Source of the DNA: Pseudomonadota bacterium
GTDB taxonomy: Bacteria > Desulfobacterota > Binatia > UBA1149
NCBI GenBank assembly: GCA_014382245.1
Contig: JACNKC010000073.1
Span: 1-41,814 of the forward strand
Direction: 5' to 3'
DNA length: 41,814 nt
Shown one piece after another: positions 5,671 to 16,463 of this stretch. The position numbers and the translations under genes are program-made. Each line of letters begins with the position of its first letter. Position 1 is the stretch's first letter. A model generated the notes under the pieces. The model was not told where the DNA came from, did no database searches, and saw nothing but the letters and a program-made list of their open reading frames with translations.

Positions 5671-6750
5671 TTACTTCAGTGTCACCCTGCTGCGTGTGCG
5701 CGGCCCGGCCGCCTGCACCTCGCCCACGATGGCGGGCCTGAGGCCGCGGTCGTGCAGGGCTTCCACCAGTTGGTGGGCATCGTCGGGTCCGAGCGCCATG
5801 AGCAGGCCTCCCGAGGTCTGGGGGTCGAGCAGGGCTTCTACGGTCGCCAGTTCCGCGTCGCGGCCCAGCGACAGGCGCCCCCCCAGGAACTCGCGGTTGC
5901 GACGGGCACCGCCGGTGGTGAAGCCAGCCTCGGCCAGGCGCGCAGTACCCGGAAGCAGCGGTAACGCAGTCGAATCGAATACTATCTTGACGCCGCTCGA
6001 GGCAGCCACCATTTCGGCAGCGTGTCCAGCCAGCCCGAAACCGGTGACGTCAGTACACGCGTGCACCCGGTAACGCAGCATCAGCGAAGCGGCTGTGTCG
6101 TTGAGCTCCACCATTGATTTTGCGACCGCATCTTCTTCGGCCTGCGTGGTCTTGCGCTGCTTGATGCCGGTCGAGACGATACCGGTGCCCAGCGCCTTGG
6201 TCAGGACCACCAGGTCTCCAGCCTTCGCGCCACCGTTACGTACAATACGATCGGGGTGGACAAGCCCACTCACCGCCATGCCGTACTTGAGATCGCTGTC
6301 TTCCACGGTGTGGCCACCGACGATCACGCCGCCGCCGGCGCGCACTCGTTCATCTCCACCCGCCAGTACGGCCGTCAGCACCTCGCTACCCATTTCGCCG
6401 AGCGGGAAGGTAACTATGTTGAGCGCCGTTACGACCCGACCTCCCATGGCGTAGACGTCGCTCATGGCGTTAGCGGCAGCCACCTGGCCAAAGGTGTAGG
6501 GGTCATCGACCATGGGCGTAAAAAAATCCACGGTCGTCACCAGAGCCAGGTTCGAGCGCAGCCGGTAGACTCCCGCGTCTTCGCTGTCGGTCATCCCGGC
6601 CAGCAGGCGAGGGTCGTCGTTGGTCGGCAGGCCACCCAGTATCCGGCCCAGGTCCGACGGACCCAGCTTGGAAGCTCAACCACCGGCCCGTGCTTTCTCG
6701 GTGAGCCTCACTGTCTCGCGACCCCTGGCCGTCTTCGCTTTCTTTGCCAT
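5671..6750 (-). CDS. selD: Selenide, water dikinase (selenophosphate synthetase), selenocysteine-containing
   Basis: SelD makes selenophosphate from selenide and ATP, the selenium donor for selenocysteine synthesis. The body is typical: TTDFF-like TTVDFFTPMVDDP, FGQVAAANAMSDVYAMGG, GGHTVED, TDVTGFGLAGHA and PQTSGGLL. A conventional reading starts only at ATG 6594 and loses the catalytic N-terminus. Reading from ATG 6750, which has GAGGAG about 8 nt upstream, gives 52 more residues in frame with one UGA at 6678-6676. Around it the sequence is LTEKARAGG-U-ASKLGPSDL, aligning with the SelD active-site motif GGC..K. Thus Sec25 replaces the catalytic Cys and Lys28 matches the essential Lys of E. 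coli SelD. The full product is 359 residues, close to family length. A SECIS-like hairpin follows the UGA. It lies 40 nt after selB. Confidence 0.93.
6648..6678 (-). promoter_or_regulatory. Selenocysteine UGA codon and bacterial SECIS hairpin in selD
   Basis: The UGA occupies 6678-6676. Nine bases later CTGGGTCC (6666-6659) pairs with GGACCTGG (6655-6648) around a GTC loop. This is an 8-bp stem with two internal G-T pairs. The loop starts 18 nt after the UGA and carries the G-U expected for SelB binding. Size, distance and loop content fit the known bacterial SECIS pattern, and SelB is encoded next door. Confidence 0.82.
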
Positions 6751-6790
6751 GAAAAACTCTCCTCGCCCGACCGTGGCCGCCGCGGTGCCT

Positions 6791-8707
6791 TCAGTGTTCG
6801 CGCAGCAGCCGGTAGTCGCCCGAACGGATTGTAACACCAGAATGGTCGAAGTAGTCAAGCAACGGAATAGAGTACTTTCGCGACGCGCCGATGAGGTCGC
6901 GAAAACCCGCCGCCGTGATTTTCTCGTTGTCGGCGAGGAAGTCTTTCAGCTGCTGCTCGAGCCCGGTTGCCACCGCCGCATCTACAATAAAATCAGGGCT
7001 TACACGCACCACGAGGCCGCGCTCCTCGAGCACCCTGGCGATGCCGGCCAGGCGCCGGCGCTCGGTGCCGAGGCTGTCGGCCAGGTCGCCCGCAAACGGT
7101 GGCGTGCAGCCCGCCTCGGCCAGCAGGCCGCACAAGCGGTCGGCCAGCGCCTGGTCGCCCGCGTCGAGTTCGGCCCGGTGACCGGGCAGTAGCACGCGGC
7201 TGCCCGCCCGCTCGAGTATTCCGCTGGCAACCATCTCGTCGACAATCACCCGAAAAATCTTTGCGTCCAGGGTGTCGCCGCCAATCCCACCGCTGCTCTC
7301 CCGCCGAAGCTGCTCCAACTCCAGCCCACCCGCGCCCTTGTTGTCAGACAGCCAGCCGCCAACGCGCTCAACCAGGCCATGGCGAAAAGCCTCCAGGCCG
7401 GCCGTGCTGACCACCAGCTGGGCCTTCTTGCTGTCGGGGAGCATGACCAACGACTCGCCGGTCATGGCGGCGAGCTCCCCCGGCTCCACGCCGAGAAAAA
7501 TTGCCAGCTCCGCGGGCGAAGCCCCCAGTGAAGAAACAGCGTCGAGATAGGCGAGCGCGCGTTCCAGCGTCGAGCCGTTCATCATCGTAGACAGGCTATG
7601 CCCGACCTCGCTCTCGTGGGAGCGATGCCGGGGCGCTCGCGGCAACACCACCCTGCCGCCACCCAGGGTGCGGGCCGCCGTCTGATCGCGGATCACGAAG
7701 CGATCGCCGGCCAGCACGATGGCCGGCCGCGAAAGCACGAGCTGCGCCCACGCCCTGCCGCGTGGCTCGAGCGATTCGACACCGTCGAGCCACAGCACGC
7801 GCCCCGCCAGCTCGTCGGTGCCCACGTAGACCCTCACGCGTTCGTGCGACGCCACCGGGTTGCGAGCCGAGGGACGCAGTTCGACCAGGGCGTCGAAGCG
7901 ATCGGTCTCTATCTCCACGCCGGGGGTCGCCACGGTGTCGCCACGCCCGGCCTGCGAACGGTCTACGCCTGACAGGTTCAAAGCAACGCGCTGCCCGGCC
8001 CATACCCGGTCTACCTTTTCGCCGTGCACCTGTATCTCGCGCACCCGGCCCCCGGTGCCCCCCGGCAATACTGCTATTTCGTCACCCGGCGCGAGCGAGC
8101 CACCCGCCGCCGTGCCGGTAACGATCGTGCCGTGCCCCTTGAGAACAAAGGACCTGTCGATAGGCATGCGGAACACCCCCGGCCGGTCGGGACGTTCGAG
8201 CTGGTCGAGGCCGGCAAACAAGACGTCGCGCAACTCTTCGATGCCCGCTCCGCTGCGCGCGCTCACCTCTTGTACGACCGAGTTTTCAAACGGCGTATCG
8301 GCGGCGAGTATCTGTATCTCTTCGCGCACGTCGGCAATGCGAGCGGCGTCGGCGAGATCGCACTTGGTTATAACGAAAATCATCGCCCGGGCTCCGAGCA
8401 GGTGTACGATGTCAAAGTGTTCCTCTGTCTGTGGCATCACGCCGTCATCGGCCGCCACTGTCATGAGCACGAGGTCAAAACCCTGGGCGCCGGCAAGCAT
8501 CTGCCTGATGAAGCGTTCGTGTCCCGGTACGTCGACCAGCCCGACGCGTCCTCCCGAGGGGTGATCCATCCAGGCAAAGCCCAGCTCTATCGAGATGCCC
8601 CGCTGCTGTTCCTCGGGAAGGCGGTCGGTTTCAACCCCCGTGAGCGCCTTGACCAGCGCCGACTTGCCGTGGTCAATGTGCCCGGCAGTGCCTACGATCG
8701 CTTTCAC
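6791..8707 (-). CDS. selB: Selenocysteine-specific translation elongation factor
   Basis: SelB is the GTPase that brings Sec-tRNA(Sec) to ribosomes paused at UGA next to a SECIS. The 638-residue product has G1 [11 protein letters not shown] at residues 6-16, G3 DVPGHERF and G4 TKCD, then EF-Tu-like domains II and III. About 270 C-terminal residues carry winged-helix repeats of the kind that bind SECIS RNA. GTG 8707 is chosen because the GTPase fold starts there ([12 protein letters not shown]); a longer upstream frame is Arg-rich and overlaps selA. The start overlaps the selA stop as GTGA (8707-8704), implying translational coupling, with a weak AGGCGG upstream. Its length matches family norms. 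Confidence 0.95.
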
Positions 8708-10146
8708 TTGCCGCCTGTTGACCGCGGCTTGCCACCTGTCCGGGAAACGCCACCTGCCCGGGAGCCTTCTCCAACGAGAGACTCGGCGTCTTTGACCGCC
8801 GCGAGGTCGAGCAGGAACACGTCGCCTTCTATGCGTCCGATGACCGGTCTTGAAAGCTCTCTGAACCTGCGGGCAATGCCGTCGGCGCTGTCGCAAGACG
8901 AAGTGACCGCCACTGCCCTCGACTCTATGTCTACGCCCGGTTGCGCACCGCTGCCCACGCGCGCGCGCGAAGGTCGCAACTCCACGTTGTAATCCTCGCC
9001 CAGCCAGACCGCCACGAGCTCGGTGGCCCTGGCCCCGAGTTCATCGAGCAGTTGAACGTCGCGCGAAAGAAAATCCAGTGTTGGCACGAGCTTTTCGGGC
9101 TGGGGCTTGAAGCGATAAATCCTCAGCGTCGCGTCGAGAGCGGCCAGGGTCATCTTGTCACAGCGCAGCGCGCGCTTGAGCGGACTGCGACGCAGTTGCT
9201 CGACGAGATCTCGACGGCCGACCACGATGCCACACTGCGGGCCGCCCAGCAGCTTGTCACCACTGAAGGTCACCAGGTCGGCGCCAGCGAGCAGCCTGTC
9301 AGCCACGAGCGGTTCGCCGGGCAATCCCCAGCGCGACAGGTCGAGCAGGGCACCCGAACCGAGATCCTCGACCACGTGCAGGCCGGGTCTCGCCGACGCC
9401 AGCCCGGCCAGCTCGGCTATGGACACTGCCGAGGTAAAACCCTCCACGCGGTAATTGCTCGGGTGCACCTTGAGCAGCATGGCCGAATTAACGCCAAGGG
9501 CCTGTTCGTAATCGGCCAGGTGGGTACGGTTGGTGGTGCCGACTTCTCGCATCAACGCACCGCTGGCGGCCATGACATCGGGGATACGAAACGAGCCACC
9601 GATCTCTACCAGTTCGCCGCGTGACACGAGCACCTCGCGGCCCTCGGCCAGCGAAGCCAGCGTGAGCAGGACGGCGGCGGCGTTGTTGTTAACCACCGTC
9701 GCGGCCTCGGCACCGGTGAGCGCGACCAGGTGCTGCTCGACGATCGAATCCCGGTCACCGCGGCCGGCGCTGTCGATATCGTACTCCAGGGCGCAGGGCG
9801 CGGTGGCGGCCCGCAGCGCCGCCTCGGCAGCCTCGTCCGCGAGCAGGGCGCGCCCGAGGTTGGTGTGAAGGATAACCCCGGTGGCGTTGACCATCTCGGC
9901 GGGAGCAGACCGCTCGCCCGATTCGAGCAGCGCGGCAGCGGCCAGGCCAACAGCGTCGGCGCTGAGCTCCTCGTCGGCCAGCTCTTCCTGCGCCAGCAGG
10001 ACGCGCCGCAAGGCTTCGATAACCTTCCGGGTAGCCTCGACCAGTGCCGTCCGCGACCAGCGCTCGAGCAGCGACCGCCCACGCGAGCCCGCGAGAACGC
10101 TGTCCACAGAGGGAAGATCGGCGAGTTTGTCTGAACGCGCAGCCAC
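8704..10146 (-). CDS. selA: L-seryl-tRNA(Sec) selenium transferase
   Basis: SelA is the PLP enzyme that converts Ser-tRNA(Sec) to Sec-tRNA(Sec) using selenophosphate. Visible features are the N-terminal [55 protein letters not shown] and the PLP lysine in [11 protein letters not shown]. From GTG 10146 the product has 480 residues and that lysine is K298, close to K295 of E. coli SelA, which favours this start. The frame stays open to ATG 10248, giving a 34-residue Arg/Pro/Gly extension with no clear ribosome binding site and a start only 2 bp from the divergent gene at 10251; that longer form cannot be excluded. The C-terminus ends in a Gly/Ser/Arg tail (residues about 457-480) not typical of the family. 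First gene of selA-selB-selD. Confidence 0.94.
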
Positions 10147-10250
10147 GGCCGGTAATCTGCCCCTTTCCCACCCGCCAGACAAACGGACCGGGGGAAAGGA
10201 CGGTCTCCCCCCGCTTGACCTTGGACGGTGCCGCGTGAAAGCATTCATGC

Positions 10251-14943: not shown

Positions 14944-15258
14944 TCAGACCACGAAGGACTCGCCGCAGCCGCAGCTGCTCTTCACGTTCGGATTTTCTAC
15001 CTTAAAACCGGCATTTACGAGATCGTCGCTGAAATCAACGGTACTGCCATTCACGTAAAGAAAGCTGCGGCGGTCAACGTACAATTTCGCACTGCCGTTT
15101 TCAAAGACCTTGTCGCCCTTCTTCTCTTCGTCGAGCTGTATCCGGTACTGCAAGCCCGAACATCCACCACCGGTGACCCTGATCCTCAGGCCGTTGGCCG
15201 GCCCGGCTTCTTCAACCAGGCCGATTATCCTTTCGGCCGCCTTGTCACTTATGTTCAT
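14944..15258 (-). CDS. iscA: A-type iron-sulfur carrier (IscA/ErpA/HesB family)
   Basis: A 104-residue Fe-S carrier that receives clusters or iron and passes them to apoproteins. The three ligand cysteines are present: Cys33 in GGGCSGLQY, and Cys96 and Cys98 in SCGCGESF. Length is standard. ATG 15258 overlaps the iscS stop as ATGA (15258-15255), so the two genes are translationally coupled. ErpA and IscA cannot be separated by eye, so the symbol is provisional. Downstream on this strand are 219 nt without a gene (14725-14943), in which I see no clear promoter or terminator. Confidence 0.92.
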
Positions 15259-16463
15259 CCGCTTGCAACCTCCCGCTCTTCCCGCCTGTACAGCGGCGAC
15301 AGCTTACGCAGTCTTTCGACCTCGGCTATCACTCTATCAGCCGCGAAATCGATATCCGATTCGTCATTGAAACGGCCAACACCAAAACGAATAGACGAGT
15401 GCGCCTGCTCGCTGCTGCGACCGAGCGCACGCAGAACGTACGAGGGCTCCATGCTGGCCGAGCTGCAGGCCGAGCCCGATGATACTGCTACGTCGGGCAG
15501 GCCCATCATAAGCGATTCGCCCTCGACACAGGCAAAACTCAGGTTGAGATTGCCGGGCAGTCGATGCTCCGGATGGCCGTTGAGCTGCACCTGGTCCAGG
15601 CCGGCGAACAACCGCGAGGCAAGCCGCTGCCTGAGCCCCAGCACGCGTTGCGCTTCGTCCTGCCATTCTTCGCCGGCCAGGCGGCATGCCATGCCCAGCC
15701 CCACTATGCCCGGTACGTTGAGGGTACCCGAACGCAGTCCGCGTTCGTGACCGCCTCCCAGGACCTGGGCCTGCAGGCGAACCCGGCGGCCACTTCTACG
15801 CAGGTACAGTGCGCCCACGCCCTTGGGCCCGTAAAGCTTGTGCGCAGAAACAGAGACCATGTCGGCGCCCAGCCGAGCCACGTCAACAGCCATCCTGCCC
15901 ACCGATTGCGCAGCGTCGCAGTGAAACAGCGCACCCTTTTCGTGGGTGGCGGCCACGAGCTCGGCGATCGGCTGCACGACACCGATCTCGTTGTTGGCCT
16001 GCATCACCGATACCAGCACAGTGTCGTCGCGCAGCGCCGCTCGCAGCTCATCCACGCTGACCATGCCCTGCTCGTCCACGCCCAGTGTCGTAAGCTCCAG
16101 GAGCCCCTCGTCCTGGAGTTGGCGGCAGGGATCGAGCACGGCCCTGTGTTCTGTAGCCACGGTGATCACGTGGCAACCACGCTCCCGCAGAAAGGGCAGG
16201 GCGCCTTTTATGGCGAGGTTGTCGGACTCGGTGGCGCCGCTGGTAAACAGTATCTCGCCCGGCTGGGCGCCGATAAGATCGGCCACTCTTTCCCTGGCAG
16301 TTTCAACCAGCGCATCGGCCTCCCAGCCCAGGCGGTGACTGCGACTGGCCGGGTTGCCGTAGACCCCGCCGAGGGCGGGCAGCATTTCTTCGAGCACGCG
16401 CGGGTCCACCCGCGTGGTGGCCTGGTTGTCCAGGTAAACAGTCCTGTCGCCTCGGGTGGTCAT
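15255..16463 (-). CDS. iscS: Cysteine desulfurase, IscS/NifS class
   Basis: This PLP enzyme takes sulfur from cysteine for Fe-S clusters and thio-cofactors; enzymes of this class can also release selenium from selenocysteine. The 402 residues include [27 protein letters not shown], the PLP lysine K209 in [12 protein letters not shown], and the persulfide cysteine C333 in [13 protein letters not shown] with the longer loop of group I enzymes. Spacing matches E. coli IscS (K206, C328). ATG 16463 is the natural start; the ribosome binding site is weak. A promoter lies 34-61 nt upstream. No iscU scaffold gene is adjacent, and iscA follows directly. Confidence 0.94.

Follow-up and report, generated by a model that had tools for sequence, protein, structure and literature searches.

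Does the selD gene of this bacterium encode a selenophosphate synthetase that itself contains selenocysteine (Sec), so that the enzyme needs its own product? The gene lies in a stretch of 41,814 nucleotides (the window), which is one contig of a 2.94-Mb genome that is assembled in 129 contigs and is 95% complete. A single frame on the minus strand runs from ATG 6750-6748 through TGA 6678-6676 (codon 25) to TAA 5673-5671, and the first-pass annotation, made from the sequence alone, had taken the whole of it as selD, with the UGA at the active-site Cys position.

5671..6750, minus strand: selD, selenide water dikinase (selenophosphate synthetase), 359 amino acids (aa) via UGA read-through, matching TIGR00476, PF00586, and PF02769.
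6676..6678, minus strand: predicted selenocysteine codon 25, an in-frame UGA in the catalytic Cys/Sec column, with TGA in 83 of 92 SelD genes of the class.
6748..6766, minus strand: ribosome-binding site AGGAG and start codon ATG 6750, read directly from the sequence.

Frame, profile match, and alignment agree on this reading. The translated product matches TIGR00476 with 355.8 bits (cut-off, 125) and contains the AIRS and AIRS_C domains. The segment around codon 25, with the TGA translated as Sec, reads RLTEKARAGG-U-ASKLGPSDL, and U25 and K28 fall in invariant columns of the SelD alignment (the catalytic Cys/Sec and the following Lys of the N-terminal glycine-rich segment), where homologues have Cys at the UGA position. 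The AGGAG motif stands at a normal distance 5′ of ATG 6750, which bears out the ribosome-binding site proposed earlier. As had also been anticipated for standard gene callers, a mechanical open reading frame (ORF) caller started selD at ATG 6594, giving a 307-aa form that is missing the catalytic segment. We consider it almost certain, on the strength of these and the following sequence comparisons, that selD encodes a selenophosphate synthetase, predicted to be active, in which Sec25 would be inserted via SelB and a hairpin downstream of the UGA.

6666..6648, minus strand: SECIS-like hairpin CUGGGUCC-GUC-GGACCUGG, apical loop at 6658-6656, assigned by the bacterial SECIS (bSECIS) model and by comparison between genomes.

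The bSECIS model specifies a loop of 3 to 9 nt with a G within its first two nucleotides, a stem of 4 to 16 bp, a spacing of 16 to 37 nt, and an energy of at most −7.5 kcal/mol (PMC13188914). The 8-bp hairpin with a GU-bearing loop that had been described 9 nt past the UGA is present, with two G-U pairs among its eight and the loop GUC, and lies within all of these limits (3 nt, G first, 8 bp, 17 nt, and −9.7 kcal/mol). No SECIS family matched anywhere in the window at the Rfam gathering score. Taken as a single sequence, the hairpin was only weakly better than chance, with 28 of 200 shuffled sequences folding as well, and shuffle z-scores were uninformative. Against synonymous recoding, P was 0.004 when 9 codons were taken and between 0.059 and 0.066 for 13 codons, and it reached 0.08 when codon usage was that of the gene itself; a longer stretch extending to the sequence before the UGA folds differently. 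The reality of the hairpin rests on comparative evidence, its excess stability in the single sequence being marginal. SelD might be Sec coded while this hairpin arises from coding constraint and a different fold serves as the SECIS; this is the alternative that keeps some weight, given recoding values of about 0.06 to 0.08 for this sequence and the existence of alternative folds, but we regard it as improbable on the following comparisons. In all 51 Sec genes of families f1 to f7 and f12, the loop follows the UGA by 17 nt, and the core pairs 13-25 to 17-21 are kept in nearly all of these relatives, which are related sequences and do not count as 51 independent events. The second selD of genome G081 carries a two-sided change from T-A to G-C in the stem. 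Gly30 is encoded by GGT in 50 of the 51 relatives, compared with 6.6 expected from own-gene codon usage, and the hairpin therefore appears to be selected. In addition, the four orthologues with Cys in this order have no such stem, and other families place the same G(U/G)N loop elsewhere.

SECIS positions differ between families over the selD loci of the class (L017-L043 and L151-L210). Families f8 to f11 have a stem 27 nt after the UGA, and families f15 and f16, in which the +17 stem is absent, have one with a GTN loop 33 nt after the UGA, with two-sided changes in both sets; in f16, an unbulged search found no clear stem in 4 of 19 genes, and the recoding test was mostly not significant. The SECIS of this one orthologous gene has thus probably moved within a single class, its loop lying 17, 27, or 33 nt after the UGA and always being a short G(U/G)N loop, with compensatory two-sided changes at each position and synonymous codons fitted to it (Gly30 GGT with GCG at codon 32 versus GGC with GCC). 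If so, SelB would recognize loop and stem while tolerating variation in their distance from the UGA, and a rebuilt hairpin elsewhere could serve without the loss of Sec insertion. All three positions are already allowed by the published range of 16 to 37 nt; relocation between families in one orthologous gene is a mildly new point, of which a limited search of open papers found no description.

What else does the genome offer for decoding the UGA? In the established pathway, tRNA(Sec) first receives Ser from SerRS; SelA then uses selenophosphate to turn this Ser into Sec, and SelB delivers the product to a UGA at a SECIS. The genes for SelA and SelB are complete and lie directly upstream of selD on the same strand, so that the selA-selB-selD cluster named in the first-pass annotation holds, with profile matches above their cut-offs.

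6791..8707, minus strand: selB, Sec-specific elongation factor, TIGR00475 with 356.8 bits (cut-off, 242) and the C-terminal SelB winged helix PF09107.
8704..10248, minus strand: selA, L-seryl-tRNA(Sec) selenium transferase, TIGR00474 with 526.6 bits (cut-off, 268) and PF03841.
15255..16463, minus strand: IscS-type cysteine desulfurase, NF010611 with 552.5 bits (cut-off, 548).

The selB GTG start at 8707 overlaps the TGA stop of selA, and selB also ends with TGA. A tRNA-Sec gene with a UCA anticodon is found on another contig (69 bits, above the Rfam cut-off; ARAGORN agrees), which removes the objection that selC might be missing. The objection that a complete Cys-type selD might exist elsewhere also falls, since a search of the 95% complete genome detected neither another SelD nor a Cys version; a weak SelD match on contig C6 (19.5 bits) was rejected as a second copy because its N terminus is missing. 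The cysteine desulfurase is a possible selenium donor to SelD. No selenouridine synthase (TIGR03167) was found in the genome at an E value of 0.001, and SelD therefore appears to serve Sec only.

The genome also contains further candidates for Sec insertion. Family searches identified at least 7 other redox genes with an in-frame UGA that would place Sec at the redox position, in answer to the earlier call to look for other selenoproteins. They encode a DsbA-like protein (UPFC), a FrnE-like protein (UPWC), two Bcp-type peroxiredoxins (TPGU), a redoxin (SWUGC), and a Prx-like protein (UPFC), with loci among L125, L124/L130, L140, L144, L145, and L146, and a deiodinase-like protein (SYTUPPF; L148, G000:C115:1104-1331; PF00837, 64 bits); Pfam checks covered four of these genes. 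In several of them, a stem whose short loop begins with G lies some 20 to 23 nt past the UGA, and over the eight UGA genes including selD, a constrained-hairpin test gave a combined P value of 0.002 and plain minimum free energy one of 0.12. The family search found no SelW/Rdx in the genome, and in-frame TGA occurred in 0 of 13 matches to molybdopterin oxidoreductases of the formate dehydrogenase type. Within the window, a VKOR domain fused to a DsbA/Thioredoxin_4 domain is encoded at 62-1150 on the plus strand; it is close to the Rcas_1661 (seleno)lipoprotein family, has the active site CVFC with Cys and no TGA, and may start beyond the contig edge.

Two genomes of the class provide a natural control. 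G018 (L203) and G022 (L202) are sisters in genus g17 on the SelD tree, and their congeners G017 and G023 have both a tRNA-Sec (74 bits) and a selD TGA. Searches for tRNA-Sec in G018 (97% complete) and G022 (96% complete) returned best matches of 50.1 and 43.7 bits, which we take to be ordinary tRNAs, because G017, too, has a match of 50.1 bits in addition to its true tRNA-Sec. Codon 25 is TGG in G018 and TGC in G022, and both genes retain GGTCC-GGC-GGACC, a fossil SECIS stem. Since TGA is gone where tRNA-Sec is missing, retention of the UGA here seems to require tRNA-Sec. In G088, from the same order, SelD and a strong tRNA-Sec match are both absent. G090 (L019) fits the pattern poorly, with a Sec-type selD and a best tRNA-Sec match of 48.5 bits in a genome that is 87% complete; missing sequence is probably the reason for the weak match. 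These observations bear on the suggestion that the UGA is read as some other amino acid, by general reassignment or by near-cognate read-through, which exists in general for UGA. Such a reading is very unlikely: UGA terminates both selA and selB and is therefore not used as a sense codon genome-wide; tRNA-Sec, selA, and selB are present; the UGA stands at a redox position, with Cys in relatives, in eight genes of the genome; and TGA has disappeared from the sister genomes that have no recognizable tRNA-Sec.

Sec at codon 25 is also the reading favored by conservation. Two genomes of the same genus, 97% identical, carry the same TGA in selD, and in the 24 codons before the UGA, every difference is synonymous, with 1 to 3 codons affected in each of the three genus pairs. 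A SelD match was obtained in 134 of 148 class genomes, a count that takes in weak, more distant relatives; in the 92 SelD genes compared at codon 25, the codons other than TGA are 7 TGC, 1 TGT, and 1 TGG, which gives eight genes with Cys and one with Trp. A genuine stop or a sequencing error at the UGA, the product being the 307-aa ORF from ATG 6594 or the gene decaying, agrees with the start chosen by the ORF caller but is very unlikely, as that form has no catalytic segment, the same TGA recurs in both genomes of the genus and in most of the class, and purifying selection acts upstream of the TGA.

Within the order, codon 25 encodes Cys in four members of family f2, which also carry a second Cys (CACK), whereas another member, G086, combines UASK with the stem. 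The four Cys genes cluster inside a mainly Sec group of the tree, which fits a conversion from Sec to Cys, the direction being inferred from a midpoint root. Conversions of this kind in SelD, as well as remnant SECIS elements in Cys homologues, are documented (PMC1794560). Two genomes have two divergent selD genes each, G081 (L021 and L168), in which one copy is of the Cys type and one of the Sec type, and G118 (L037 and L207). In G001-G007 and G093-G104, open frames of about 700 to 860 aa have a distant SelD-like C-terminal part and no TGA and resemble oxidoreductase/SelD fusions.

How, then, would a Sec-containing SelD be made and maintained? SelB carrying Sec-tRNA(Sec) would bind the hairpin just past the UGA and insert Sec at residue 25, SelD would make selenophosphate from selenide and ATP, and SelA would use the selenophosphate to charge more tRNA(Sec) for SelD and the at least 7 other redox selenoproteins. 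As the only SelD carries Sec25, the enzyme needs its own product, which closes the loop. In the steady state, SelD inherited at cell division may suffice. After a loss of SelD, occasional insertion of Cys at the UGA could prime the loop, a possibility that we consider because Cys forms of SelD work in other species (PMC4561486 cites activity of Cys mutants). The question of how such a pathway starts from zero, raised in the first-pass annotation, is thus legitimate, but it is not peculiar to this genome.

Sec-containing SelD is the second most widespread selenoprotein family of prokaryotes, and its self-dependence is known. The arrangement described here is well supported as real but already known from many bacteria. 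It accounts for 19% of SelD genes in a reference set of 223 genomes (PMC4561486), so its novelty had been overstated. With the Sec-SelD proteins of bacteria, archaea, and eukaryotes (SPS2), the protein shares TIGR00476 and Sec at the position of the catalytic Cys of Escherichia coli, and likewise a bacterial SECIS directly downstream and the presence of the Sec machinery. Nothing essential differs; residue 27 is Ser here and a second Cys in many Cys-type SelD proteins. Cys-SelD of the E. coli type has the same fold and predicted reaction, with GG-C-ACKLGP in same-order relatives, but does not need Sec insertion, and those Cys relatives, unlike this gene, have no hairpin.

Standard callers would annotate selD 52 residues short and without its active site, and as most of the class would be likewise misannotated, selenium use in these uncultured lineages is probably underestimated. 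The class offers a natural series, from intact Sec-SelD through conversion of Sec to Cys to loss of tRNA-Sec, in which the UGA has been replaced and the hairpin persists as a fossil, with the SECIS at three positions. With such a series, a surrogate host could be used to test how much variation in spacing SelB tolerates and how a self-dependent enzyme is primed.
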